In this document: positions 542 to 34,787 of the stretch, piece after piece
Layout: each line of letters opens with the position of its first letter
How positions within the stretch are numbered: the stretch's first letter is position 1
Origin: Actinomycetota bacterium
GTDB lineage: Bacteria; Actinomycetota; Aquicultoria; Aquicultorales; Aquicultoraceae
Length of the DNA stretch: 52,516 nt
Assembly: GCA_030018005.1 (NCBI GenBank)
Contig: JASEGT010000006.1
Location: 1-52,516 of the forward strand
Reading direction: 5' to 3'
The notes under the pieces: model-generated
Database searches by the model: none
What the model was told of the DNA's origin: nothing
Seen by the model: the letters and a program-made list of their open reading frames with translations, nothing else
Made by a program: the position numbers and the translations under genes

Positions 542-2080
542 TTAAAGATCATGGCGAATTGAATTATTTCCGTTATTCCCTTTTGCTATTTTTTCCGCTC
601 GGATTCGCGCTAGCAGAGCCGAGGCGGGTTCGTCGTGTGGGTCTTGCGGCACCAGTTGGCCAGAGAAAGCTTTTTTCAGGATGGACTGCCGCATGGCTTC
701 GGCTTGTTGCAGGGATGTGGTGATGGTTTGGTCGAGTTGGTCAATTTCGGAAAATTTTGATTCAAGTGTCAGTAGTATTTGCGCCTGCTCATCAATTGAG
801 CAAATTGGAATAAGCATCCTTGTCAGCTTCTCGCCCGTCAAATGCTTGATGGTGGTTCCAGTAAACATCTTCTCAAGCCTGCGATTTGATGCGCACAACT
901 CGAAGTACATCTGCACAAAAGACGAATTCATGGAATCGGTAAATCGAACTCTGTGCAATGCTTTTTGAATTTGCATGTCTTGACCAAGCTCTTCCCGCCA
1001 TACCGCGCTGCGACCTGGCTCACCGCCTTCACAGATAACCAGGTCGCCATCCCGCAAACCGTATCGAACGTACTCAGATTCTTCAAATCGCATTTCAAGC
1101 AAATCATCAAGGGCGAATTTCCCCCAGCGTACATTGATGTTTCTTAGGTAGGGCTTTAGCTCTCCTTTGTTTTTTTCCTTATCCAGCATCTTCCCCAGAA
1201 TAGATTCTAGGCAAATGTTCCCCATTCCAAACCACCCCCACCCATCCGGCAGTTCAGGTAATTCAGCTAGTTCTTCGGCGGTCAGAGGTGGTAGGGGTTT
1301 TGGGGGTTTGGGTTTGCGGGCTTGTTTGCCGGATGCTTCCCAGGCAGTGAGTTGTTGTTGGTAGTGTTGCGCGCGTTCGGTTTGGATGCGTTTGAGCAAA
1401 GCTTCGGCGCTTTCCAGTTTATCCTGGTTTTCTGCACGCCATTGCGCAGTAAGCTTGCCCTCGAAGGCGTGTTTCAGCAGGGCTTGGCGATATACTTTGA
1501 GCTGCGCGCGGGCGGTTTTCAGGTTTTCAATACCCTTGTCCAGCTCAGAAAACAGCTCCTCTATTTTGGCAACAATGCGATGTTGTTCGTTGGTTGGCGG
1601 AAGGGGAACTTCACAACTAGCTATATAAGGTGTCGTTACACGTCTTTGACCAACCGCGCCAGACATGTTGTGTTCTGCCTCATGACGAAATGCTCGGGAT
1701 GAGACGTAATAGTAAATATACTTTGCGTTCACACCAGATAGGGCTCGAAGAACATGAAATTCTGTAGAGCCAAAACCTAAGCCATTTCTAAGCTCTGGCA
1801 CTATGGCCATTTTTCCATTTTCCATACAAGGGGTTATCTTGGCAAATAGAACATCCCCTTCACGGAAAGGCGTGTAACCTTTTTTTACGTCTGAAAATTT
1901 GCGTTTATTGCTAACGTCAATAACACCACTTTCAGCTTGTACAGCGGACATCGGTACAAATGCAACATCCAGATCATCAGAAATCTTGGCTTTATCAAGT
2001 GCCGGGTTCACTGCGGCTATATCAGAAATCTTGGCATTACACCAAGTATGGGGTAATCCGCCAACGCTACTCATCATCAC
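542..2080 (-). CDS. hsdS: Type I restriction-modification specificity subunit HsdS
   Basis: HsdS carries the DNA-recognition domains that direct HsdM and HsdR. The 512-residue protein has the expected two-fold plan: a first target-recognition domain (about residues 8-165), a helical spacer containing NEQHRIVAKIEELFSELDKG (about 165-215), a Pro/Lys-rich linker (KPKPPKPLPP, near 260), a second recognition domain (about 285-430) and a second helical repeat (about 430-490). The length is in the usual range for HsdS. The start is a GTG overlapping the hsdR stop; two ATG codons follow at once and are equally possible. It is translationally coupled to hsdR. No hsdM is visible; it would have to lie left of the window or elsewhere. 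Confidence 0.93.
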   Translation of the reverse strand: MMMSSVGGLPHTWCNAKISDIAAVNPALDKAKISDDLDVAFVPMSAVQAESGVIDVSNKRKFSDVKKGYTPFREGDVLFAKITPCMENGKMAIVPELRNGLGFGSTEFHVLRALSGVNAKYIYYYVSSRAFRHEAEHNMSGAVGQRRVTTPYIASCEVPLPPTNEQHRIVAKIEELFSELDKGIENLKTARAQLKVYRQALLKHAFEGKLTAQWRAENQDKLESAEALLKRIQTERAQHYQQQLTAWEASGKQARKPKPPKPLPPLTAEELAELPELPDGWGWFGMGNICLESILGKMLDKEKNKGELKPYLRNINVRWGKFALDDLLEMRFEESEYVRYGLRDGDLVICEGGEPGRSAVWREELGQDMQIQKALHRVRFTDSMNSSFVQMYFELCASNRRLEKMFTGTTIKHLTGEKLTRMLIPICSIDEQAQILLTLESKFSEIDQLDQTITTSLQQAEAMRQSILKKAFSGQLVPQDPHDEPASALLARIRAEKIAKGNNGNNSIRHDL

Positions 2081-4863
2081 ACCACCAACACCTCATTCAA
2101 CTCTTCCAACAGCTCATCCATCCGCGCACCAAACAACTGATACATCTTGCCAAGCCCGCCTTGTCCGTCGAAGGGCGCCATTTCGAGGTCGTCGCGACCA
2201 ACATGAAACGAGCTTGCGACGTGGTCGCGGATCATGCGTAGCCAGTTCATTTGTTCTTCGTTGAATTTTTCGCTGCCGCCGGAGTGGTGTTTCATCACCC
2301 AGTTCTGGAAGTTGCGGCGCACGGTGTCGTCGAAGGTGGAGAGTTTGTCGTCCATGCCGCAAACGCGGCGGATAAGCGCGACCAGCGCAGTCAGTTCGCT
2401 GATGGGCTGCGCGCCTTTGTAATCGTCCAACTGGCGGTAGGCTTGCCACACCCGGAGCGGGGCGAGTTTGGGTTTGTCGGCTTTGAGCTTGTCCATCACT
2501 TCGCGTATCATCTCGAAGCTGAGTTCGCGCCGACGATACGGCTGGCTGAAGAAAATGGTCAGCGCTTCGATGTTGTCCTGATTGCTTCTCAGGTAATCGG
2601 CAAATTCGTCGGACAGGGCTTGTGCGTTGTTGGCCGCGTCTTTGTCCCACTCGGCGCGCAGCACGCTGTCGATATTGTCATGGTCGATGGTTTGTTCCTT
2701 GTCGCGGCGGATGGTGTCGATGAGTTCGACGAGGTTGCCATTTAAAAGACGAGCAGCGTCGCCGACCAGTTGCTCTTGCGCCGACTCGCGGTTTGCGTCG
2801 CCGGGGTCATTCTCTACGGGTAGCCCGGCCAACTTTAACGCTTTGGCTTCGATGTTATCGGCATCGATTGCGTCGAACAGCTTGCCGATAATCGCGGTGA
2901 GTTCCACACCTCCGGCAGCCTCACTGATTCGCCGCTGTTCATCTGTGTTGAGTTGCTTGTTGAGCCGCGCCAAACGTCCGGCAAGTGAGCTGACCGTGTC
3001 CGCATCGCTCGCGCCCATCATCACGCTCATCGCCAAATCCTTCAGCGGTATGCCGGGTTTGGTGATGAGCGGCTGGCTGGCGGTTTTCAGCGATTTAGTA
3101 ACGCCGATGGCATCGATAATCACATAGTGGGTCTTAGCGCTAACGGCGGATGGTGTGACTTTCCGCAGATCGTCCACATCAAGCGTGCGCGTGCCGCGGC
3201 CTTTCATCTGCTCGAAGTAGTTGCGGCTCTTAACGTCGCGCATGAACAGCAGGCATTCCAGCGGTTTTACATCGGTGCCGGTAGCAATCATGTCCACCGT
3301 GACAGCGATGCGCGGGTAATATTCGTTGCGAAACTGCTGCAAAACGGACTTGGGGTCTTCCTCGGTCTTGTAGGTAAGTTTCTTGCAGAACGCATTGCCT
3401 TCGCCGAACTCCTCGCGCACGGTCTGGATAATGTCGTCGGCGTGGCTGTCGGTCTTGGCGAAGATAAGGGTCTTCGGGACTTCTCTGCGGCCGGGAAAAA
3501 TCTCCGGCAACTTGTCGCGAAAAGTGCGAATGACCGTGCGAATCTGATCGGGATTAACGATATTTTGGTCGAGCTGCCGGGCGGAGTAGACTTCATCTTC
3601 GTCCTGGAGTTCCCAGCGTTTTTTGCGGGTGAGCTTCTCACGGCGCTCGACCTGCTGTTGCGCCTTTATTTGCGCGCCTTGCGTGGTAATCTCGGTTTCG
3701 ATTAGATAGATTTCGTTACCCACATTGACGCCATCGGCCACGGCTTTTTCGTGGCTGTAATCGCTGACCACGTTCTTTTTGAAAAAACCATAGGTGCGGT
3801 TATCGGGTGTAGCGGTTAAACCGACTAAGCTCGCGTCGAAATAATCGAGCACCTGTTGCCATAGGTTGTAGATGGAGCGGTGGCATTCATCGACAAATAT
3901 GAAATCAAAAAACTCCGGCGGGACCTTTTCGTTATAGACTACGGGCATCGGTTCTTTAGTTTGTATTTGCTCAGCCGGATTTATCTCTTCCGCGGCCTCA
4001 TCGAGTTCTCTATCTTTGAGAATCGAGTAGAGCCGCTGAATGGTGCTGATGCAAACCTGGCTGTCTTTAGCAACAAACGAGGACTTAAGCCGCCGCACGT
4101 TATATAGCTCGGTAAACTTGCGGTTATCGTCGATGGGCACATAGGACATCATTTCCTGTTCGGCTTGCTCGCCCAGGTTCTTGGTGTCCACCAGAAAAAG
4201 GATGCGCTTGCCTTCTGCGTGTTTGAGCAAGCGATAGATGGAGGTGATCGCGGTGTAAGTTTTACCCGCGCCCGTCGCCATCTGAATCAGGGCGCGCGGA
4301 CGGTCTGCCTTGAACGAGGCTTCCAGCTTGGTGATGGCTATCTCCTGGCAATCGCGCAGGCGCAGTTCCTTTGCGGGACGATGATTCGGATTGAGTATAG
4401 GAATATGCTGCAAACGTTCGCGCAGGCTGTCTCCTTGCGCGAGCCATTCCTTAAGTGTTTCAGGCCGGTGAAAACTGAAGACTTCGCGGGAGCGCGGTTT
4501 TGGGTCGCGGGCATCGGTGAAGCGGGTTAGAATGCCGGTGCTCTCGTAGAGAAACGGCAACGGCTCTTGGTTGTTAACCCACTTCAGCTTGGCGCCGGCA
4601 TAGCCTTCGGTTTGTGTTTCGTGAACGGTAAGCCGCTGCCCCTCTTCTTCACGCTTGGCCTCGATCACACCGACCGCTTTTTTGTCCACAAACAACACAT
4701 AGTCCGCCGGGCCGACATCGGTCTGGTATTCGCGCACGGCCCGACCCAAGCCGACATTGAGGTCGATCTTCGTGTTGCTCTGAACCGCCCACCCTGCCTG
4801 CATTAGCAGCGCATCGATAGTATCTCGGGCTTTCTGTTCGGGATTTTGGTTGTATGTTGTCAA
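2077..4863 (-). CDS. hsdR: Type I restriction endonuclease subunit HsdR
   Basis: This is the ATP-dependent translocase and nuclease of a type I restriction complex. The 928 residues show an N-terminal PD-(D/E)xK nuclease core (D54, then E68-A-K70 in VIEAK), a superfamily 2 helicase with Walker A MATGAGKT (residues 195-202), DECH (325-328) and TATP (350-353), and a C-terminal region of the EcoEI-like type. All key catalytic residues are present, so nothing suggests a dead enzyme. The start is TTG at 4863 with an AAGGA about 11 bases upstream. It is the first gene of hsdR-hsdS-DUF488; the usual neighbour hsdM is missing from the window. Confidence 0.93.
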   Translation of the reverse strand: MTTYNQNPEQKARDTIDALLMQAGWAVQSNTKIDLNVGLGRAVREYQTDVGPADYVLFVDKKAVGVIEAKREEEGQRLTVHETQTEGYAGAKLKWVNNQEPLPFLYESTGILTRFTDARDPKPRSREVFSFHRPETLKEWLAQGDSLRERLQHIPILNPNHRPAKELRLRDCQEIAITKLEASFKADRPRALIQMATGAGKTYTAITSIYRLLKHAEGKRILFLVDTKNLGEQAEQEMMSYVPIDDNRKFTELYNVRRLKSSFVAKDSQVCISTIQRLYSILKDRELDEAAEEINPAEQIQTKEPMPVVYNEKVPPEFFDFIFVDECHRSIYNLWQQVLDYFDASLVGLTATPDNRTYGFFKKNVVSDYSHEKAVADGVNVGNEIYLIETEITTQGAQIKAQQQVERREKLTRKKRWELQDEDEVYSARQLDQNIVNPDQIRTVIRTFRDKLPEIFPGRREVPKTLIFAKTDSHADDIIQTVREEFGEGNAFCKKLTYKTEEDPKSVLQQFRNEYYPRIAVTVDMIATGTDVKPLECLLFMRDVKSRNYFEQMKGRGTRTLDVDDLRKVTPSAVSAKTHYVIIDAIGVTKSLKTASQPLITKPGIPLKDLAMSVMMGASDADTVSSLAGRLARLNKQLNTDEQRRISEAAGGVELTAIIGKLFDAIDADNIEAKALKLAGLPVENDPGDANRESAQEQLVGDAARLLNGNLVELIDTIRRDKEQTIDHDNIDSVLRAEWDKDAANNAQALSDEFADYLRSNQDNIEALTIFFSQPYRRRELSFEMIREVMDKLKADKPKLAPLRVWQAYRQLDDYKGAQPISELTALVALIRRVCGMDDKLSTFDDTVRRNFQNWVMKHHSGGSEKFNEEQMNWLRMIRDHVASSFHVGRDDLEMAPFDGQGGLGKMYQLFGARMDELLEELNEVLVV

Positions 4864-6331: not shown

Positions 6332-6616
6332 CTACTGGAGATGTCTTACGTACTGTTCAAACAAAGCGAGCGCCGATTCGACACTCTCCTCGGGACCTTT
6401 ATCGGCGGAGCTTTCTTTTGCGATACAGTCACGGATGACGCTCGCCAAAATAATCTCTCCTACGCGCTGGAAAGCGCCTTTTGCGGCCGCAAACTGGGTC
6501 AGGACGCTCTCGCAGTCCTCGCCCATCTCAACCAACCGCTGGAGACCCCTTAGCTGGCCCTCAAGCCTCTTAAGCCTTGTGACTATCCGTTTGCACTCTT
6601 CCTCGCGATCGTACAT
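6332..6616 (-). CDS. CsoR/FrmR-family repressor, CstR-like (lacks the copper-ligand His)
   Basis: This is a 94-residue all-helical DNA-binding repressor of the CsoR/RcnR/FrmR/CstR family, with the typical IVTRLKRLEGQLRGLQRLVE opening. By position, Cys35 and Cys64 match the two copper-ligand cysteines of CsoR (C36 and C65 in the mycobacterial protein). The middle ligand, His61 there, is Val60 here. A dithiol without the His is the pattern expected of thiol or persulfide sensors such as CstR, so copper sensing is unlikely; this is inference. An extra Cys8 is present. It lies 20 bases downstream of the Sec-thioredoxin gene, so the repressor is co-transcribed with it and probably autoregulated through the site at 7113-7137. 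Confidence 0.88.
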   Translation of the reverse strand: MYDREEECKRIVTRLKRLEGQLRGLQRLVEMGEDCESVLTQFAAAKGAFQRVGEIILASVIRDCIAKESSADKGPEESVESALALFEQYVRHLQ

Positions 6617-6636
6617 ACAATACCCCCGTGTCCCTG

Positions 6637-7065
6637 CTATTTAAGAGTTTTCTCGACATTCTCCACGATGAGTGCTTTCGGCTGCGACCCGATTAACGTA
6701 CTGACCGTAGCTCCGTCCTTGTTTATAAATATCAGTGTCGGTATCGACCGAATGCCAAACTGGTCGGCGACTTTTACATGATCCGGATTGTCCAAATCAT
6801 AGGTTTCAAATGTAATCTTACCTGCATATTCTTTCTTCACCTGCTCCACGAGCGGCTTTATCTCCCTGCAGGCGGGTCAGTAATCAGCCGAGAAGAACAT
6901 GACCTTTGGCGTTCCGCTCACTACGGGCTTCGCGCCATCACCCTGGTTGACCGCCCCACTCGTTCCCTGGGTTTGACTCTGCTGACAACCGATTATGGAT
7001 AGCGCTAAAACTCCTACGAGTATAGCGATTGCTAAAACTTTAATTGTGTTATTTCTATCAAACAA
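6637..7065 (-). CDS. Selenocysteine-containing thioredoxin-like lipoprotein (UxxC; in-frame TGA read as Sec)
   Basis: A frame of 142 residues is interrupted only by TGA at 6877-6879 (residue 63). Read through, it gives a complete thioredoxin fold with active site DYUPAC, the TGA standing exactly at the first catalytic Cys of CxxC (Sec63, Cys66), and a cis-Pro109 in IRSIPTLIF. The N-terminus has a membrane segment and lipobox IIGC (Cys27), so it should be anchored outside the membrane. The start is TTG at 7065 with GGAGAA upstream. The homology continues on both sides of the TGA, so a simple pseudogene is unlikely. A possible SECIS hairpin lies downstream (CCTGC 6868-6872 with GCAGG 6840-6844), only weakly supported by eye. 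The likely role is extracytoplasmic thiol or persulfide reduction. Confidence 0.85.
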
Positions 7066-7112
7066 CGCGTTCTCCTTCCAACCGTGACGGAAAGTTTGTT
7101 ATTTGTATCGAG

Positions 7113-7137
7113 TGGTATAGACCCCCATAGTATACCA
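7113..7137 (-). promoter_or_regulatory. Probable CsoR-family operator over the -10 of the Sec-thioredoxin/repressor operon
   Basis: The arms TGGTATA (7113-7119) and TATACCA (7131-7137) flank an 11-base spacer containing a run of five G on the minus strand. A -10 box TATACT (7129-7134, minus) overlaps the right arm; no strong -35 is visible. G-tracts flanked by AT-rich inverted arms are the usual CsoR-family operator form, and the site resembles the one at 7976-7992. Confidence 0.55.
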
Positions 7138-7202
7138 CGATACTGTGATAAATATAATGCTAGATACGCATATTAGTTTATGTGCGGTACTTGTTTTAAC
7201 GA

Positions 7203-7230
7203 TTTAAGCCCTCGCAAGCGAGGGCTTAAA
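7203..7230. terminator. Strong hairpin downstream of the trxA / zinc-ribbon pair
   Basis: A perfect 13-bp inverted repeat (7203-7215 with 7218-7230) is centred on GCAAGC. It lies after the FmdB-like gene and before the Sec-thioredoxin promoter. There is no T-run on either side, so a weak or bidirectional terminator or an RNA-stabilising hairpin is possible. Confidence 0.55.
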
Positions 7231-7328
7231 TATTGCCTTCAAACACGATACGGTTTAATCTTTCTCATACCAATCGCCGTTTTAAATTTTTAAGTTACCA
7301 GTCAAGCCACCGGCTCGCTAGATTATCC

Positions 7329-7547
7329 TCAGCGAAAACCGCCCGTACCGCAGCCGCCGCCGGAGTGTCCCGCGGCACTGCCGCCGCCGCTCCTCGACGC
7401 GGTGTAGCCGAAAAAGTCCCGGTATGCTTGGCGCACGTTGCTGCTGCCGCAGCTTGGACAGACTTTGTCCGAATCACGCAGCATCCTCATTAAAAATATC
7501 TCATAGTCGCTGGCGCAATCGTTGCATACAAATTGATAAGTTGGCAT
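7329..7547 (-). CDS. FmdB-like zinc-ribbon protein
   Basis: This 72-residue protein opens with MPTYQFVCNDCASDYEIF and has CPSC after about 20 residues, giving the CxxC...CxxC zinc ribbon of the FmdB/putative regulatory protein family. The C-terminus is a Gly/Ser-rich tail with a Cys and a His (HSGGGCGTGGFR), common in this family. The function of the family is not well established. The ATG at 7547 follows GGAGGG. It is 91 bases downstream of trxA on the same strand and is probably co-transcribed with it. Confidence 0.85.
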   Translation of the reverse strand: MPTYQFVCNDCASDYEIFLMRMLRDSDKVCPSCGSSNVRQAYRDFFGYTASRSGGGSAAGHSGGGCGTGGFR

Positions 7548-7638: not shown

Positions 7639-7950
7639 CTATAGCCCGAACTGGCGCACGATTTCTTCCTTCGGCACCGCACCGACGATTTGACCCGCGG
7701 CCTGGCCCTCTTTAAAGAGCATGAGCGTCGGGATACTCATAACGCCGAACTTGCCGGCCCATTCGCGCTCTTCGTCGACGTTGAGCTTAACGACCTTGAC
7801 CTTGCCGTCATACTCTTTAGCGAGCTCCTCCAACCTCGGACCGATAATCTTACACGGCCCGCACCAAGGAGCCCAAAAATCGACTATCACAGGAACATCT
7901 GATTTCAACACTTCCGCATCGAACTGCGCATCGGTTATATTACTAGGCAT
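7639..7950 (-). CDS. trxA: Thioredoxin
   Basis: This is a cytoplasmic disulfide reductase of 103 residues, the normal thioredoxin length. The active site is [10 protein letters not shown] (Cys30 and Cys33) and the cis-proline loop is [10 protein letters not shown]. No signal peptide is present. The ATG at 7950 follows AAGGAGTGG. Its promoter (7973-8001) is close to consensus and carries a CsoR-type operator between the -35 and -10, so the upstream repressor family probably controls it. Thioredoxin reductase is encoded at 33532-34446. Confidence 0.96.
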
Positions 7951-8286: not shown

Positions 8287-8703
8287 CTACTTGAGTTCGG
8301 TCTTAACATAATTCGCGATTATCTTGATTTGCTCTTCGGTCAACTCGCCGTCCTTGAACTTAGGCATCGAGCCTTTACCGCCGTTGATTACTTTCTCTAC
8401 TTCATCGACAGAACGAGCGGTTCCCCGGATAGCCGGACCAATCACTCCGTTGCCGTCATGGCCATGGCAAGCGCCACAGCTATTTACAAACAGCTGCTCA
8501 GGGTCCTTGACCTCTTCGGGCTCCAGCTCCACCGCTTCGCCTTCAGCGTTTGCCTCCCCCGCGTTTTCCGTAATAGCACCTTCTTTTTTCTCCTCGCTGC
8601 TACCGCCCGAACACCCTGCGAGCATAAAACCGGCCAATGAAATCAATAGCAGGAAAACTAAAATGCCTGTCGATTTTTGAAACTTCACCTTGTCTAGCCT
8701 CAA
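8287..8703 (-). CDS. Lipoprotein class I cytochrome c
   Basis: The protein carries an N-terminal membrane segment and lipobox LAGC (Cys31 with this start), an acidic linker rich in Glu, and one c-type haem domain with CGACH (Cys76, Cys79, His80) and a distal Met in GSMPKF (Met113). It should be a membrane-anchored electron carrier on the outer face. I chose TTG 8703 because GGGAGGG stands six bases upstream; ATG 8718 has no spaced ribosome site. It is monocistronic, with a hairpin downstream. It fits an anaerobic respiratory chain using the menaquinone made by the cluster at 37-45 kb; the partner enzymes are not in view. Confidence 0.9.
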   Translation of the reverse strand: MRLDKVKFQKSTGILVFLLLISLAGFMLAGCSGGSSEEKKEGAITENAGEANAEGEAVELEPEEVKDPEQLFVNSCGACHGHDGNGVIGPAIRGTARSVDEVEKVINGGKGSMPKFKDGELTEEQIKIIANYVKTELK

Positions 8704-8842
8704 AAGATTCCCTCCCATCCTAAACAACCATGTCTTTCTATATAAGTTACCGTATTGTGGCCGCCGTTTCCAGTATTTGATGATAATTTATCAATTGTTT
8801 TGCGCTTAGGCTGACAGAAAAAGCTCACGCGAAATAGTCTTT

Positions 8843-9703
8843 CTATTCTAATTCGCCGCCGCTGAAGATATTGTCCGGCATCAGCGATACTAGTTTGCTT
8901 CGCGCTTCCTTGAGCGTAAGGGGCAATTTATCAAACGGCAATTGGTCTTTGTGCTTGAGTTCTTCTATGAGATGGGTGATATAGGGAAGGCGCAGGTCGA
9001 CCTCTTCCATCACCTGCGTGCTCGAAAAGACGGTGTCCGGCGTGCCTTCGATAGTAATCCGGCCTTCTTTCAAGACGAAGATGCGGTCGACGAAGAGCGG
9101 GATGAGGTCGACCATGTGCGTGGCCATCACGATAGTCACACCGGCCTCCTTGTTGAGTCGCCCCAATATATGAAGCAAATTCGCCTCGCTCTTGGGGTCG
9201 AGACCGGCGGTAGGCTCATCGAGCAATAGGATTCGGGGGCGCATCGCCAGCACACCGGCGATACAGACTCGTTTCTGCTGGCCAAAGCTTAAGTGGTGGA
9301 TTGGTTTTCGCCGGTGGGCCAACATGTCGACCATCTCAAGCGCCGTCTCGACCCTTTCCTCGACTTCGACATCGGTTAACCCCAGGTTTCGGGGGCCGAA
9401 CGAGACATCCTCTTCGACGGTCGAGGCAAAGAGCTGGTCGTTCGGGTTCTGGAAGACCAGCCCTATCGCGCGCGCCAGGTCGATACGTTTGAGCTTCGAG
9501 AGCGGTTTGTTGTCGATGAGAATCGACCCAGGGCGCGCCTTAAAGAGGCCGACGATTGCTTTGAGCAGCGTCGTCTTGCCCCCGCCGTTCGACGCCAAAA
9601 GCCCGATGAACTCCCGCTCATCTATGGAGAGATTTATGCCGTCCAGCGCGCGGGTCCCATCTTCATATATGTATACTAAATCCCTGACTTCCAGGTATGA
9701 CAA
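8843..9703 (-). CDS. cbiO: Cobalt ECF transporter ATPase CbiO
   Basis: This 286-residue ABC ATPase powers the CbiMNQO cobalt importer. Seen: a Walker A region LLASNGGGKTTLLKAI, Q-loop FQNPNDQLFASTVEEDVSFG (characteristic of ECF ATPases), signature LSFGQQKRV (canonical LSGGQ altered at the third position), Walker B ILLLDEPTAGLDP and the switch His in MATHMVD. It starts 4 bases after the cbiQ stop and ends the operon. A single ATPase gene implies a homodimer in the complex. Confidence 0.93.
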   Translation of the reverse strand: MSYLEVRDLVYIYEDGTRALDGINLSIDEREFIGLLASNGGGKTTLLKAIVGLFKARPGSILIDNKPLSKLKRIDLARAIGLVFQNPNDQLFASTVEEDVSFGPRNLGLTDVEVEERVETALEMVDMLAHRRKPIHHLSFGQQKRVCIAGVLAMRPRILLLDEPTAGLDPKSEANLLHILGRLNKEAGVTIVMATHMVDLIPLFVDRIFVLKEGRITIEGTPDTVFSSTQVMEEVDLRLPYITHLIEELKHKDQLPFDKLPLTLKEARSKLVSLMPDNIFSGGELE

Positions 9704-9706
9704 CCG

Positions 9707-10492
9707 TTACCTCCAGTAAAAATCGAGCGCCAGCAGCACGAGAAAGAGCGATGTGAACAAAACGCCCGCGCTTAGGTCGCTTCTTCGTAGTGCTTGCGGC
9801 CTTTCGATATAGATAGCCCCGTTGTAGCCCCGGAGCACCATTGCGTCGTGCGTCGCGTGAGCTTGGTCGAAGACACGGGCAAAGAGCGACCCTACCAGCG
9901 TGCCCCAAGATCTCAATCCGGTCAAGAGACCCTGGTAGCCGAGACGCAGGCGCTGAGAGTCCATAATGCTCTGCGCTTCCTCTATAAAGACGAAAATATA
10001 ACGGTAGGCGAATGCGAGAACGGCGAGCCATTCATCGGAGACTCTCAAGAACTTGAGCGCACTTAATATTTTGTGAAGCGGTGTTGTCATGCTTAAAAAG
10101 ATAATCGACGAGGTCCCGGCGAGCACCCGGCCCGCGATCAATATCCCTTTTTCGATGCCCTCCCGATAGAGGGGAACCGAAAAACCCATGGCCTCCAAGG
10201 TGTAGAGCGGCGTCTCACCGAAGAACAATCCCTGAAGGAGAAGTATCATGCCGGCCATAAAAAGCGGGGCGGCCAGGCGCGCCAACACCATCTTGGGCGG
10301 AATCCCTATCATGACGAGGGCTCCCAAAGACGCGAACATAACGGAGATTAGTATGGGTAAGTCCTTGCTGACCAGGACAAGTACGAGAACGGCAAGGATA
10401 AAAAACAACTTGACCCGCGCGTCTATCACCGTCAAAACGTTGCTTCTTTGCGCAAAATAATCCGAGAAAATCTCGACATTGTGCCTTGGCAT
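9707..10492 (-). CDS. cbiQ: Cobalt ECF transporter transmembrane protein CbiQ
   Basis: This is the energy-coupling membrane component (T subunit) of the cobalt importer. Several hydrophobic segments are visible, with the family stretches DARVKLFFILAVLV near the N-terminus, FLSMTTPLHKILSALKFL, and a cytoplasmic coupling region EEAQSIMDSQRLRLG / VLRGYNG. ATG 10492 has GGAG seven bases upstream and gives 261 residues; an ATG at 10531 exists but lacks a ribosome site. It follows cbiN and precedes cbiO. Confidence 0.9.
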   Translation of the reverse strand: MPRHNVEIFSDYFAQRSNVLTVIDARVKLFFILAVLVLVLVSKDLPILISVMFASLGALVMIGIPPKMVLARLAAPLFMAGMILLLQGLFFGETPLYTLEAMGFSVPLYREGIEKGILIAGRVLAGTSSIIFLSMTTPLHKILSALKFLRVSDEWLAVLAFAYRYIFVFIEEAQSIMDSQRLRLGYQGLLTGLRSWGTLVGSLFARVFDQAHATHDAMVLRGYNGAIYIERPQALRRSDLSAGVLFTSLFLVLLALDFYWR

Positions 10493-10536
10493 ATATATTC
10501 TCCGGCCCGCATCTGCCCGGTCGAGCCCCATAGTTT

Positions 10537-10860
10537 CTAATCAGATTTGTTCCCATCCGTCTCCGGGTCTTTAGCGGCACCCTTAAAGACAACCCGCCAA
10601 TAGTAGCCCATGACAAACCCCCCTATAGTGCCGGCGAGCAAGAATACAAACAGGAGTAGGTCTCCCTGGTCGGTATTGATGAAAGAAGTCCACGCGGGCC
10701 GTCCGGCCTGCTCCGCGTAGTGCTCGACGACGGCCTCGTCGACACCCGACCACTCTCCGGCGAACGCATGCCCTGTGAGCGGGCCTGCGGCAAGTGCAAA
10801 CGACGCCAAGCACAGCATACGCCAAACCCAACCCATAAAATGACTAAACTGCCTGCTCAT
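10537..10860 (-). CDS. cbiN: Cobalt transporter accessory subunit CbiN
   Basis: A 107-residue protein has one N-terminal membrane segment, a short external domain (GEWSGVDEAVVEHYAEQAGR) and a C-terminal segment DQGDLLLFVFLLAGTIGGF, the two-helix plan of CbiN. CbiN helps load metal into CbiM. Sequence conservation in this family is low and the call leans on position: it overlaps the end of cbiM by 17 bases and precedes cbiQ. Confidence 0.85.
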   Translation of the reverse strand: MSRQFSHFMGWVWRMLCLASFALAAGPLTGHAFAGEWSGVDEAVVEHYAEQAGRPAWTSFINTDQGDLLLFVFLLAGTIGGFVMGYYWRVVFKGAAKDPETDGNKSD

Positions 10861-11620
10861 AAGATATCCCCTTTCCCGTTTGCGGCGCTTGGTCGATGAT
10901 ACCGAGCTTGACCAGAATATCCGGTCTCCTGCTCAACATGAATGCGAAGAAACCAGCGGCAGCGAAGCCTTCAAGGATTCCTATGGGTAGCTGTGTCGGA
11001 ATAAAGGCGATAAGAATAGCCTTGAACATACCGGGAAAACCCTGCACTCCGCCCAAGCCGAGCGCCAACTCGAGCGCGGTCGTGGTGTACGTCGCCCAGT
11101 CCGAGAGGACCCCCGCAAAAAAAGCGGCGACGGTCAGCGGCGCTTTGAGGCGCACCAGCAACTTGAAGACAAAAAAGCCCGAGAACGCGCCGACGATGCC
11201 CATCGACATAATGTCCGCTCCCCAGGTAGTGATACCGCCGTGCGCGAGAAACAACGCCTGTATCAAGAGCGCGACTGAGGTCGCGATAACGGTAGCAAAA
11301 GGCCCGATGATGATGGCGGCCAAACCTGTGCCGGCCGGGTGTGAGCAAGTTCCGGCCGTGGGCACCGGTATCGGCATCGCCGATATGATAAAGACCGCTG
11401 CCGACACCATGCCGATAAGGGGCAGGTAAGCCGGCATATCCAAGCTTTTTCGACGCATCTCCCGAACCCCGTAGACGACGAATGGGAGAGCGACCAAATA
11501 CCAGGCCCCCGCCCACGGAAGCGGAAGTATGCCCTCCGCGATATGCATGGCGTACGCGGGAGCGGCGCCCATGCCGAGCATTGCTACTGATAACGTAAGA
11601 ACTGCTGCTAAACGTTTCAC
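10844..11620 (-). CDS. cbiM: Cobalt ECF transporter substrate-binding subunit CbiM
   Basis: CbiM binds Co2+ through its mature N-terminus. Here a signal-like segment ends in AYA before MHIAEGILP, the conserved mature start with the ligand His, and HPAGTG and further hydrophobic helices follow. I chose GTG 11620 (258 residues) because AGGGGG stands six bases upstream. The longer frame to ATG 11716 would begin inside the riboswitch terminator and is unlikely. It is the first gene of cbiMNQO and is controlled by the cobalamin riboswitch upstream, which links cobalt import to B12 status. Confidence 0.94.
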   Translation of the reverse strand: MKRLAAVLTLSVAMLGMGAAPAYAMHIAEGILPLPWAGAWYLVALPFVVYGVREMRRKSLDMPAYLPLIGMVSAAVFIISAMPIPVPTAGTCSHPAGTGLAAIIIGPFATVIATSVALLIQALFLAHGGITTWGADIMSMGIVGAFSGFFVFKLLVRLKAPLTVAAFFAGVLSDWATYTTTALELALGLGGVQGFPGMFKAILIAFIPTQLPIGILEGFAAAGFFAFMLSRRPDILVKLGIIDQAPQTGKGISYEQAV

Positions 11621-11676
11621 TTTGACCCCCTTTAATATATGAGCGGCCGCCGAAAACAAGAACTCACCGACCACAC

Positions 11677-11707
11677 AAAAAAGCCCGGCCGTTATTGACC
11701 AAGGCTT
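11677..11707 (-). terminator. Riboswitch expression-platform terminator
   Basis: On the minus strand the AAGCC arm (11703-11707) pairs with GGCTT and is followed by a run of T (complement of 11677-11682). It lies between the cobalamin aptamer and cbiM, as expected for B12-dependent transcription termination. Confidence 0.7.
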
Positions 11708-11749
11708 ACCGCCCACTCCGGCCTCGGAAGTGGTCTCCCTTGCATGCCC

Positions 11750-11915
11750 CAGGCAGGTCTCCTGGCTTCCGGATCTTTGCTTGCCACGCCTTCCCGGCCT
11801 TTGCGGATTTCACCCCGCTCTTGCCAGTGGCATCTATGGCTCGCTCCCCGATTACAGTGACGGGCTCGCGCTGGACTTTCACCAGCTTCCCTATTCTACG
11901 CTGACCATTCTTTAT
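11750..11915 (-). promoter_or_regulatory. Cobalamin riboswitch controlling cbiMNQO
   Basis: On the minus strand the hallmark elements of the B12 aptamer appear in order: AGGGAAGCTGGTGAAAGTCC, GCCCGTCACTGTAATCGGGG, GCCACTGG, GGGAAGG and finally AGCCAGGAGACCTGCCT (the B12 box). Together with the terminator at 11677-11707 it forms a transcriptional off-switch. Between it and tadC (to 12148) lie its promoter and an 8-bp inverted repeat (12012-12019 with 12052-12059); I see no gene there. Confidence 0.96.
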
Positions 11916-33531: not shown

Positions 33532-34446
33532 CTATTTATCTTCTAGCCTGATAAGATATTCAAAGGCGGAGAGGGCGGCCTTGGCACCCTCACCTGCAGC
33601 GACGATTATCTGCTTTTGCGGCACATTCGTGACATCCCCTGCGGCAAACAAACCGGTGACATTGGTGCGGCTGCCACAATCCACAACGATTTCGTGCTTC
33701 TCGTTGAGTTCGACCAGACCGGAGACGAAGTCCGAGTTTGGTTCCGACCCTATTTCGATAAAAACGCCGCGCACCGGAAGTTCGCGCACCTCATCGGTCT
33801 TTCGCGACTTGATTTTCAAGCGCTCTACCAGGTTCTGCCCTTCGATTGCGATGATATCGTAACCTTTAAGTATCTCGATATTGCTCGCGCCCGTCGCCCG
33901 CTCCTGTAAAACCGGGTCGGCGCTCCATCCGTATTGAGATACCGCATAGACCTTGCCGGCGATATCGAGAAGCTGCACGATCGAGCTTAACGCGGCGTTA
34001 CCGCCGCCGATTACCGCGACGTCCATCTTGGCGAAGAGCGGGGCGTCGCATGTAGCGCAGTAGGTTACGCCTTTGCCGACGAACTCTTTCTCGCCTGGAA
34101 TCTTAAGATGCCTCGGCGACCTGCCGGTCGCCACAATAACCGTCTTTGTCCGGACTTCCTCACCGCTATCGAGATGGACGGTGAAGACCTCTCCTTCTTT
34201 CGTCACTTTCTCGGTGGTTTTATACTCGATTGGGATATTGAATTCCTTTACCTGTTCCTCGAATTTTGCCATGAGTTCCACGCCGGAAATCAGATGATAC
34301 CCCATATAATTTTCGATACCGGCGCTCCATAGCGCGAGGCCGCCCACATTATTCGCGTATATCACGCAATCCATTTTTTTACGCGCGGCATAAACGGCGG
34401 AGGTCATCCCCGCCGGCCCCGCACCGATTATCACAACATCTCTCAA
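33532..34446 (-). CDS. trxB: Thioredoxin reductase
   Basis: This 304-residue FAD/NAD(P)H enzyme has an N-terminal FAD motif VVIIGAGPAGMTSAVYAARK, the redox-active CATC pair (Cys130, Cys133), a second GxGxxA nucleotide motif VAVIGGGNAALSS, and the C-terminal FAD motif TGLFAAGDVTNVPQKQI. Length and domain order are normal for the low-molecular-weight type. It starts at TTG 34446 after GGGGG and follows the Sec-glutaredoxin with a 15-base gap, so the pair is probably a dedicated reductase and redoxin. Confidence 0.95.
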   Translation of the reverse strand: MRDVVIIGAGPAGMTSAVYAARKKMDCVIYANNVGGLALWSAGIENYMGYHLISGVELMAKFEEQVKEFNIPIEYKTTEKVTKEGEVFTVHLDSGEEVRTKTVIVATGRSPRHLKIPGEKEFVGKGVTYCATCDAPLFAKMDVAVIGGGNAALSSIVQLLDIAGKVYAVSQYGWSADPVLQERATGASNIEILKGYDIIAIEGQNLVERLKIKSRKTDEVRELPVRGVFIEIGSEPNSDFVSGLVELNEKHEIVVDCGSRTNVTGLFAAGDVTNVPQKQIIVAAGEGAKAALSAFEYLIRLEDK

Positions 34447-34461
34447 AACAAACCCCCAGCT

Positions 34462-34701
34462 TTACAGTCCGGCGATAGCAGCTTCGAGTCGGGCCCGGTC
34501 GTAGCCGACGATGGCCTGCCCGTCGATTACAGTCACGGGCACCCCTAGTTGGCCCGACACCTCCACCAACTCGCCTACTTTGTCAGGTTCGGCCGCCAGG
34601 TCGATTTCCTCGAATTCGACCTTCTTTTCCTCGAGAAACTTCTTGAGCAACGAACAGTACGCTCAGGTCGGAGTAGAATAGACTTTAATACTCGCCGGCA
34701 T
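34462..34701 (-). CDS. Selenocysteine glutaredoxin-like protein (UxxC; in-frame TGA read as Sec)
   Basis: From ATG 34701 (GGAGG upstream) the frame reads MPASIKVYSTPT, then TGA (34663-34665, residue 13), then AYCSLLKKFLEEKKVEFEE. The TGA stands exactly where the first Cys of a glutaredoxin/NrdH CxxC belongs (Sec13, Cys16). The C-terminal half has GVPVTVIDGQAIVGYDRARL, the cis-Pro and GSH/NrdH-type end, for 79 residues in all. A possible SECIS stem (TGAGC 34661-34665 with GCTCA 34644-34648) starts at the codon itself. It is the second gene in this window with a TGA at precisely the catalytic Cys, which makes Sec far likelier than a mutation. trxB follows. Confidence 0.87.
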
Positions 34702-34787
34702 TAAATCCTCCATGTCCAATATTGATCACTTCTATTGTTAACCGCATCCGCTGTCGAACATCTTAAAACGCGCCGACCTTCAGCGGC

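Follow-up and report, generated by a model that had tools for sequence, protein, structure and literature searches.

A putative selenocysteine-containing thioredoxin lipoprotein encoded next to a CstR-like repressor in the Aquicultoraceae

The gene at 6637-7065 of the analysed window, a stretch of 52,516 nucleotides of an Aquicultoraceae genome, very probably encodes a thioredoxin lipoprotein in which an in-frame TGA is decoded as selenocysteine (Sec). This reading, put forward in a preliminary description of the DNA, is borne out by the presence of sel genes in the genome, the retention of the TGA in relatives, purifying selection and a covarying hairpin. From TTG to TAG the frame is open except for codon 63, where, as described there, a single TGA takes the place of the first catalytic Cys; the lipoprotein signal and the cis-Pro are likewise intact, with the lipobox Cys27, Cys66 and cis-Pro109 all present. 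The translation (LFDRNNTIKVLAIAILVGVLALSIIGC...VMFFSADY-U-PAC...SIPTLIF) starts with a signal peptide that carries the lipobox IIGC; a linker rich in Gln, Ser and Gly leads to a thioredoxin domain, which scores 55.9 bits for the Pfam family Thioredoxin (PF00085; cut-off 23.5). The best PDB matches are thioredoxins, and the score for the TrxA equivalog TIGR01068 stays below its cut-off (62.3 versus 96.8); judged by these profiles, the protein contains a thioredoxin family domain but is not TrxA. The redox pair U63-C66 and P109 are invariant in the alignment of relatives. The lipoprotein assignment is made from the sequence pattern alone: the lipobox Cys is found in nine of ten family orthologues and is missing from the tenth, L025, and also from L060, so lipidation is not universal. 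The coordinates of all features are listed in Table 1.

Table 1. Features in and around the Sec thioredoxin gene and the second Sec redoxin frame
Feature	Position	Strand	Remark
DUF156 (CsoR/RcnR family) repressor gene, CstR-like Cys/Cys, no His	6332-6616	-	20 nt downstream of the Sec gene
Putative Sec thioredoxin lipoprotein gene, 142 aa when read through	6637-7065	-	TTG start at 7065, TAG stop at 6639-6637
cis-Pro109 codon (IPT)	6739-6741	-	invariant alignment column
SECIS-like hairpin GCCGCU / AGC-A-GGU, pentaloop CGUGG at 6846-6850	6839-6856	-	RNAalifold and covariation
Resolving Cys66 codon (UxxC)	6868-6870	-	invariant alignment column
In-frame TGA, codon 63, first position of UPAC, predicted to be read as Sec	6877-6879	-	same codon in relatives
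Signal peptide with lipobox I-I-G-Cys27 at its end	6985-7065	-	sequence; orthologues
Ribosome-binding site AAGGAG	7072-7077	-	6 nt 5' of the TTG start; sequence
Palindrome GTGGTATA-CTATGGGGGTC-TATACCAC over an extended -10 (TGGTATACT)	7112-7138	-	candidate repressor operator
Perfect 14-bp inverted repeat, terminator-like stem	7202-7231	.	parts upstream genes from the Sec transcription unit
Cytosolic-type thioredoxin gene, CGPC, ordinary	7639-7950	-	conserved neighbour in the family, upstream of the Sec gene
Sec glutaredoxin-like frame, UAYC, TGA at 34663-34665	34462-34719	-	Pfam Glutaredoxin, 56.9 bits

The source genome (2.19 Mb, 99.4% complete, a draft assembly of 128 contigs) belongs to the Candidatus Aquicultor lineage, and its genus neighbour G003 has the same protein as locus L079 of a Candidatus Aquicultor assembly (JAUXNY010000128.1). 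Of the 11 genomes of the family Aquicultoraceae, 10 have an orthologue in which a single TGA occurs, at the same codon in every case; the eleventh genome is 77% complete. These orthologues, which include separately named public assemblies, share 37-89% protein identity. Members with the TGA are found in 18 of the 36 genomes of the class, eight of them beyond the family, and a conservation of this extent is more than chance would give. A Cys homologue of the class (G030) has the motif CGAC. Among 397 genomes of the phylum, TGA members were detected at the threshold used in only one other family, where three genomes (L089, L090 and L091) encode a transmembrane rhodanese-Sec-thioredoxin fusion with the motif UPTC and the same SECIS-like hairpin. 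The tree of Sec and Cys forms is built on 95 columns and has long branches. No decayed Cys copy was seen, and the relatives carry TGA at residue 63; the concern of the preliminary description, that relatives might have Cys there and this strain a frameshifted or decayed copy, is thereby dispelled. The dN/dS values 3' of the TGA are 0.093, 0.122 and 0.139, and those before it are higher, at about 0.2; by this measure, the segment after the TGA is under purifying selection. A second Sec thioredoxin of G008 (L071; also L032) has the motif UPSC and is preceded by TPR-like repeats, not by a lipobox.

The machinery for Sec insertion is encoded in the same genome, where selB, tRNA-Sec, selA and selD are grouped on a single contig. 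SelB (380.6 bits, above the cut-off) and SelD (357.9 bits) were identified by their profiles and tRNA-Sec by Rfam (72.6 bits) as well as by ARAGORN; the selA-like frame adjoins selB and was assigned by this position and by its sequence, not by a profile. Absence of selA, selB, selC and selD, which would have told against the Sec reading, can thus be dismissed, since all four genes are there. The selD gene (L017, G000:C48:5428-6342, minus strand) has an in-frame TGA in the N-terminal active-site loop (GUAAK), and SelD of this genome is, from its sequence, probably itself a selenoprotein.

A search of positions 6600-7100 returned no match to an Rfam SECIS model; covariation across relatives supports a SECIS-like hairpin 3' of the TGA, with its loop 26 nt after the UGA. 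Unguided RNAalifold runs on the ungapped alignment 3' of the UGA placed it at columns 27-44 in the family and at columns 30-40 in the wider set. The inner stem is paired in 95.8% of the cells, and 18 of 48 cells are changed on both sides (16 sequences); the hairpin of L028 sits one pair out of register. Stem covariation amounts to 0.922 compared with 0.254 +/- 0.068 in shuffles, none of which reached it (0 of 500), and slid controls did not exceed 0.286. The summed pairs come to 126 against 63 +/- 9 (maximum 95 among 2000) in a synonymous-codon null that keeps the protein, a deviation that is overstated because the sequences are related. The pentaloop follows the pattern NGUNR, with columns 34 and 35 always GU and column 37 G or A, and its apical-loop G recalls bacterial SECIS elements, which have a G at this site (PMC1088965). 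In the hairpin register, at most one pair forms in any of four Cys homologues or in the Cys thioredoxin encoded nearby. When all TGA triplets of the window were scanned by a criterion derived from the Sec thioredoxin family itself, 2 of 1434, the codon-63 TGA included, were followed at the same distance by a hairpin of at least six pairs with such a loop. The window sequence on its own is unexceptional, and the case for a SECIS thus rests on the family: its 45-nt minimum free energy has a z-score of -1.07, the corresponding fold pairs CGCCUGC with GCAGGUG instead of forming the conserved hairpin, and the synonymous-null P value is 0.34. While halted at the UGA, a ribosome would occupy the 5' arm of this alternative fold and could thereby free the conserved hairpin.

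Other readings of the TGA have to be weighed against this evidence. That it is a real stop, resulting from a nonsense mutation, an assembly error or pseudogenization and leaving a dead 3' fragment, would agree with its meaning in translation table 11 and with the draft state of the 128-contig assembly; it is nevertheless highly improbable, since the same TGA recurs in 10 of 11 family genomes with proteins 37-89% identical, separately named public assemblies among them, the dN/dS after it is 0.09-0.14 and selDABC are present. Hardly more credible is the production of two polypeptides, a lipoprotein cut short at the TGA and a C-terminal fragment with an initiation of its own. The window copy does contain a GTG (CTC GTG GAG) behind a purine-rich AGGGAG, but most relatives have GTT or GTC instead, and there is no conserved start codon just past the TGA. 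A fragment deprived of residue 63 and of the first strand would moreover be left without a redox pair, and covariation of the hairpin also speaks against two products. Insertion of another amino acid, be it by reassignment of UGA to Trp, Cys or Gly or by general readthrough, would account for the open frame and for nothing more, and we give it very little credence: UGA sits at a catalytic Cys position in the thioredoxin and glutaredoxin genes as well as in selD, homologues have Cys at the UGA position, and the genome encodes tRNA-Sec and SelB. The pseudogene, split-gene and code-reassignment readings were consequently rejected on the grounds of conservation and covariation.

A second redoxin of the same kind had been reported for the window, and the glutaredoxin-like frame with its UAYC motif agrees with this. 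Its closest families, YruB and Uxx-star, are matched below the cut-off, and a thioredoxin-reductase-like gene (33532-34446, minus strand) begins 15 nt downstream. In the family, TGA and non-TGA forms of the glutaredoxin-like gene both occur, unlike the thioredoxin. In G020, which belongs to another family of the class, locus L062 (plus strand) carries a Sec thioredoxin lipoprotein with UGAC (1483-1869) and a Sec glutaredoxin with UPYC (1914-2168) in tandem, downstream of a nitroreductase-like gene. Elsewhere in the window, type I restriction-modification genes (542-4863, minus strand) encode specificity and restriction subunits as judged by eye, which are adjacent and overlap by a few bases.

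The Sec thioredoxin gene is followed by a repressor gene (PF02583, 77 bits), and the preliminary description of this neighbour as a thiol-type repressor is supported: it is a DUF156 protein with the Cys/Cys pair and no His. In alignments to 7mq3, 5fmn and 4m1p it shows the pattern DC...DC, with Val at the His position, whereas InrS and CsoR have His there. Its best PDB match is 7mq1/7mq3, which we take to be pneumococcal CstR. Nine family loci lie on contigs that extend far enough, and in each of them a repressor with two Cys and no His is encoded 17-38 nt downstream of the Sec gene; the two genes therefore probably form one operon. Repressors of the CstR type respond to reactive sulfur, and their genes are typically found beside their targets (PMC10318464). 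The palindrome over the promoter, GTGGTATA-N11-TATACCAC, is confined to the genus, with a shorter G-run in G003; other genera keep a TTATACTAT-like -10 and lack the palindrome. Its G-run resembles that of many operators of the DUF156 repressor family (PMC10318464). A genome search with the palindrome gave a mismatch-free hit only at 7112-7138, and hits were not in excess of those in the reversed control. The interval from the Cys thioredoxin to the Sec gene encodes, at about 7329-7500 on the minus strand, a small zinc-ribbon-like protein with CPSC and a ...GGGCGTGG tail, which has no Pfam match.

In the proposed mechanism, translation would start at the TTG at 7065, and the SECIS-like hairpin some 26 nt past the UGA would recruit SelB with Sec-tRNA-Sec, so that the UGA would be read as Sec and not as a stop. 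The gene, the codon, the machinery and the hairpin are seen in the sequence, and from these we infer Sec insertion itself. The product would be exported, lipidated on Cys27 and held at the membrane, where the Sec63-Cys66 pair may reduce disulfides or sulfane sulfur (persulfide or polysulfide) on extracytoplasmic substrates. CcdA would probably return the pair to the reduced form, drawing on electrons of cytosolic thioredoxin, and the thioredoxin encoded upstream is a possible donor. The CstR-like repressor probably controls the Sec gene and its own downstream gene, and it may release the promoter once its two cysteines react under sulfur or disulfide stress. The substrate and the regulatory steps are put forward tentatively, with a likelihood between rather low and about even.

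The best functional inference is a reduction of disulfides or sulfane sulfur outside the cytoplasm, with CcdA delivering the electrons, as this fits the lipid anchor, the Sec site, the CstR-like partner, CcdA, dsrA and the rhodanese fusion found elsewhere. The operon itself holds no gene that names a substrate. The ccdA gene is not adjacent to the Sec gene; dsrA is also present in the genome, and an in-frame TAG noted in dsrA turned out to be the terminal stop of that gene. The Aquicultoria have been inferred to be anaerobic sulfite or sulfate reducers (PMC10591310). A more specific proposal, which we consider rather unlikely to hold in full, is that a selenothioredoxin anchored at the surface, under the control of a persulfide-sensing repressor, serves as a dedicated extracytoplasmic sulfane-sulfur reductase in sulfite- or sulfate-reducing Aquicultoria; if true, this would be a previously undescribed selenium-dependent module of sulfur homeostasis, with rhodanese-fused counterparts in other Actinomycetota. 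A serious rival, though on balance less likely than not, is that the lipoprotein functions in cytochrome c maturation or in general extracytoplasmic disulfide reduction in the manner of ResA/CcmG and has no part in reactive sulfur metabolism. In favour of such a role, a gene for a c-type cytochrome lipoprotein lies in the vicinity (8287-8727, minus strand) and the ccdA gene of the genome is found beside a multihaem cytochrome gene. Against it stand the tight conservation of a CstR-like repressor as the partner, the fusion of this Sec domain with a rhodanese in another family and a better match to thioredoxin models than to those of ResA/TlpA. The cytochrome gene is followed by a region (8843-11833, minus strand) resembling, by eye, a cobalt/nickel ECF transporter of the CbiMNQO type. 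The fixed CstR-like link and the rhodanese fusion offer a testable tie between selenium and the control of reactive sulfur outside the cytoplasm.

Sec thioredoxins are a long-known selenoprotein family (PMC1794560) with an experimentally verified entry (PMC13188914). Like the bacterial members from Geobacter, Treponema and Carboxydothermus (PF00085; PMC1794560, PMC13188914), the protein described here has a thioredoxin fold with Sec replacing the first catalytic Cys, a UxxC motif and a SECIS just 3' of the UGA; the features that may set it apart are its predicted export and lipid anchor and the conserved operon that it shares with a CstR-like repressor. The lipoprotein stays below the cut-off of every NCBIfam model, no description of it was found in the literature searched, and a 2026 inventory leaves lipoproteins unmentioned. 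The preliminary description had called a membrane-anchored Sec thioredoxin beside a thiol-type repressor unusual, which is upheld for the lipoprotein form and the conserved pairing but not for the Sec thioredoxin itself, a known family. TsoB (rhodanese/DsbD fusion-like, NF045694) and SaoT (NF040730) are also thioredoxin-like UxxC selenoproteins, and the rhodanese-Sec-thioredoxin fusion of the other actinobacterial family recalls TsoB; the window protein, however, has no rhodanese domain and scores far below the cut-offs of both curated models (26.8 versus 805 for TsoB and 13.3 versus 65 for SaoT). With the extracytoplasmic thioredoxins ResA, StoA and CcmG it would share a membrane-anchored thioredoxin fold that faces outside and is probably fed by CcdA, but matches to this type are weak and the active site contains Sec. 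Among the DUF156 proteins CstR, CsoR and FrmR, the predicted repressor resembles CstR in having Cys at both CstR positions and no His. An annotation that ignores UGA recoding would truncate the thioredoxin. Its family also yields a clear alignment of a bacterial SECIS with an NGUNR loop and compensatory stems. The bacterial selenoproteome would gain a Sec thioredoxin with a lipid anchor, retained in much of a class; while the Sec thioredoxin as such was already known, its lipid-anchored form paired with a CstR-like repressor is, provisionally, new.
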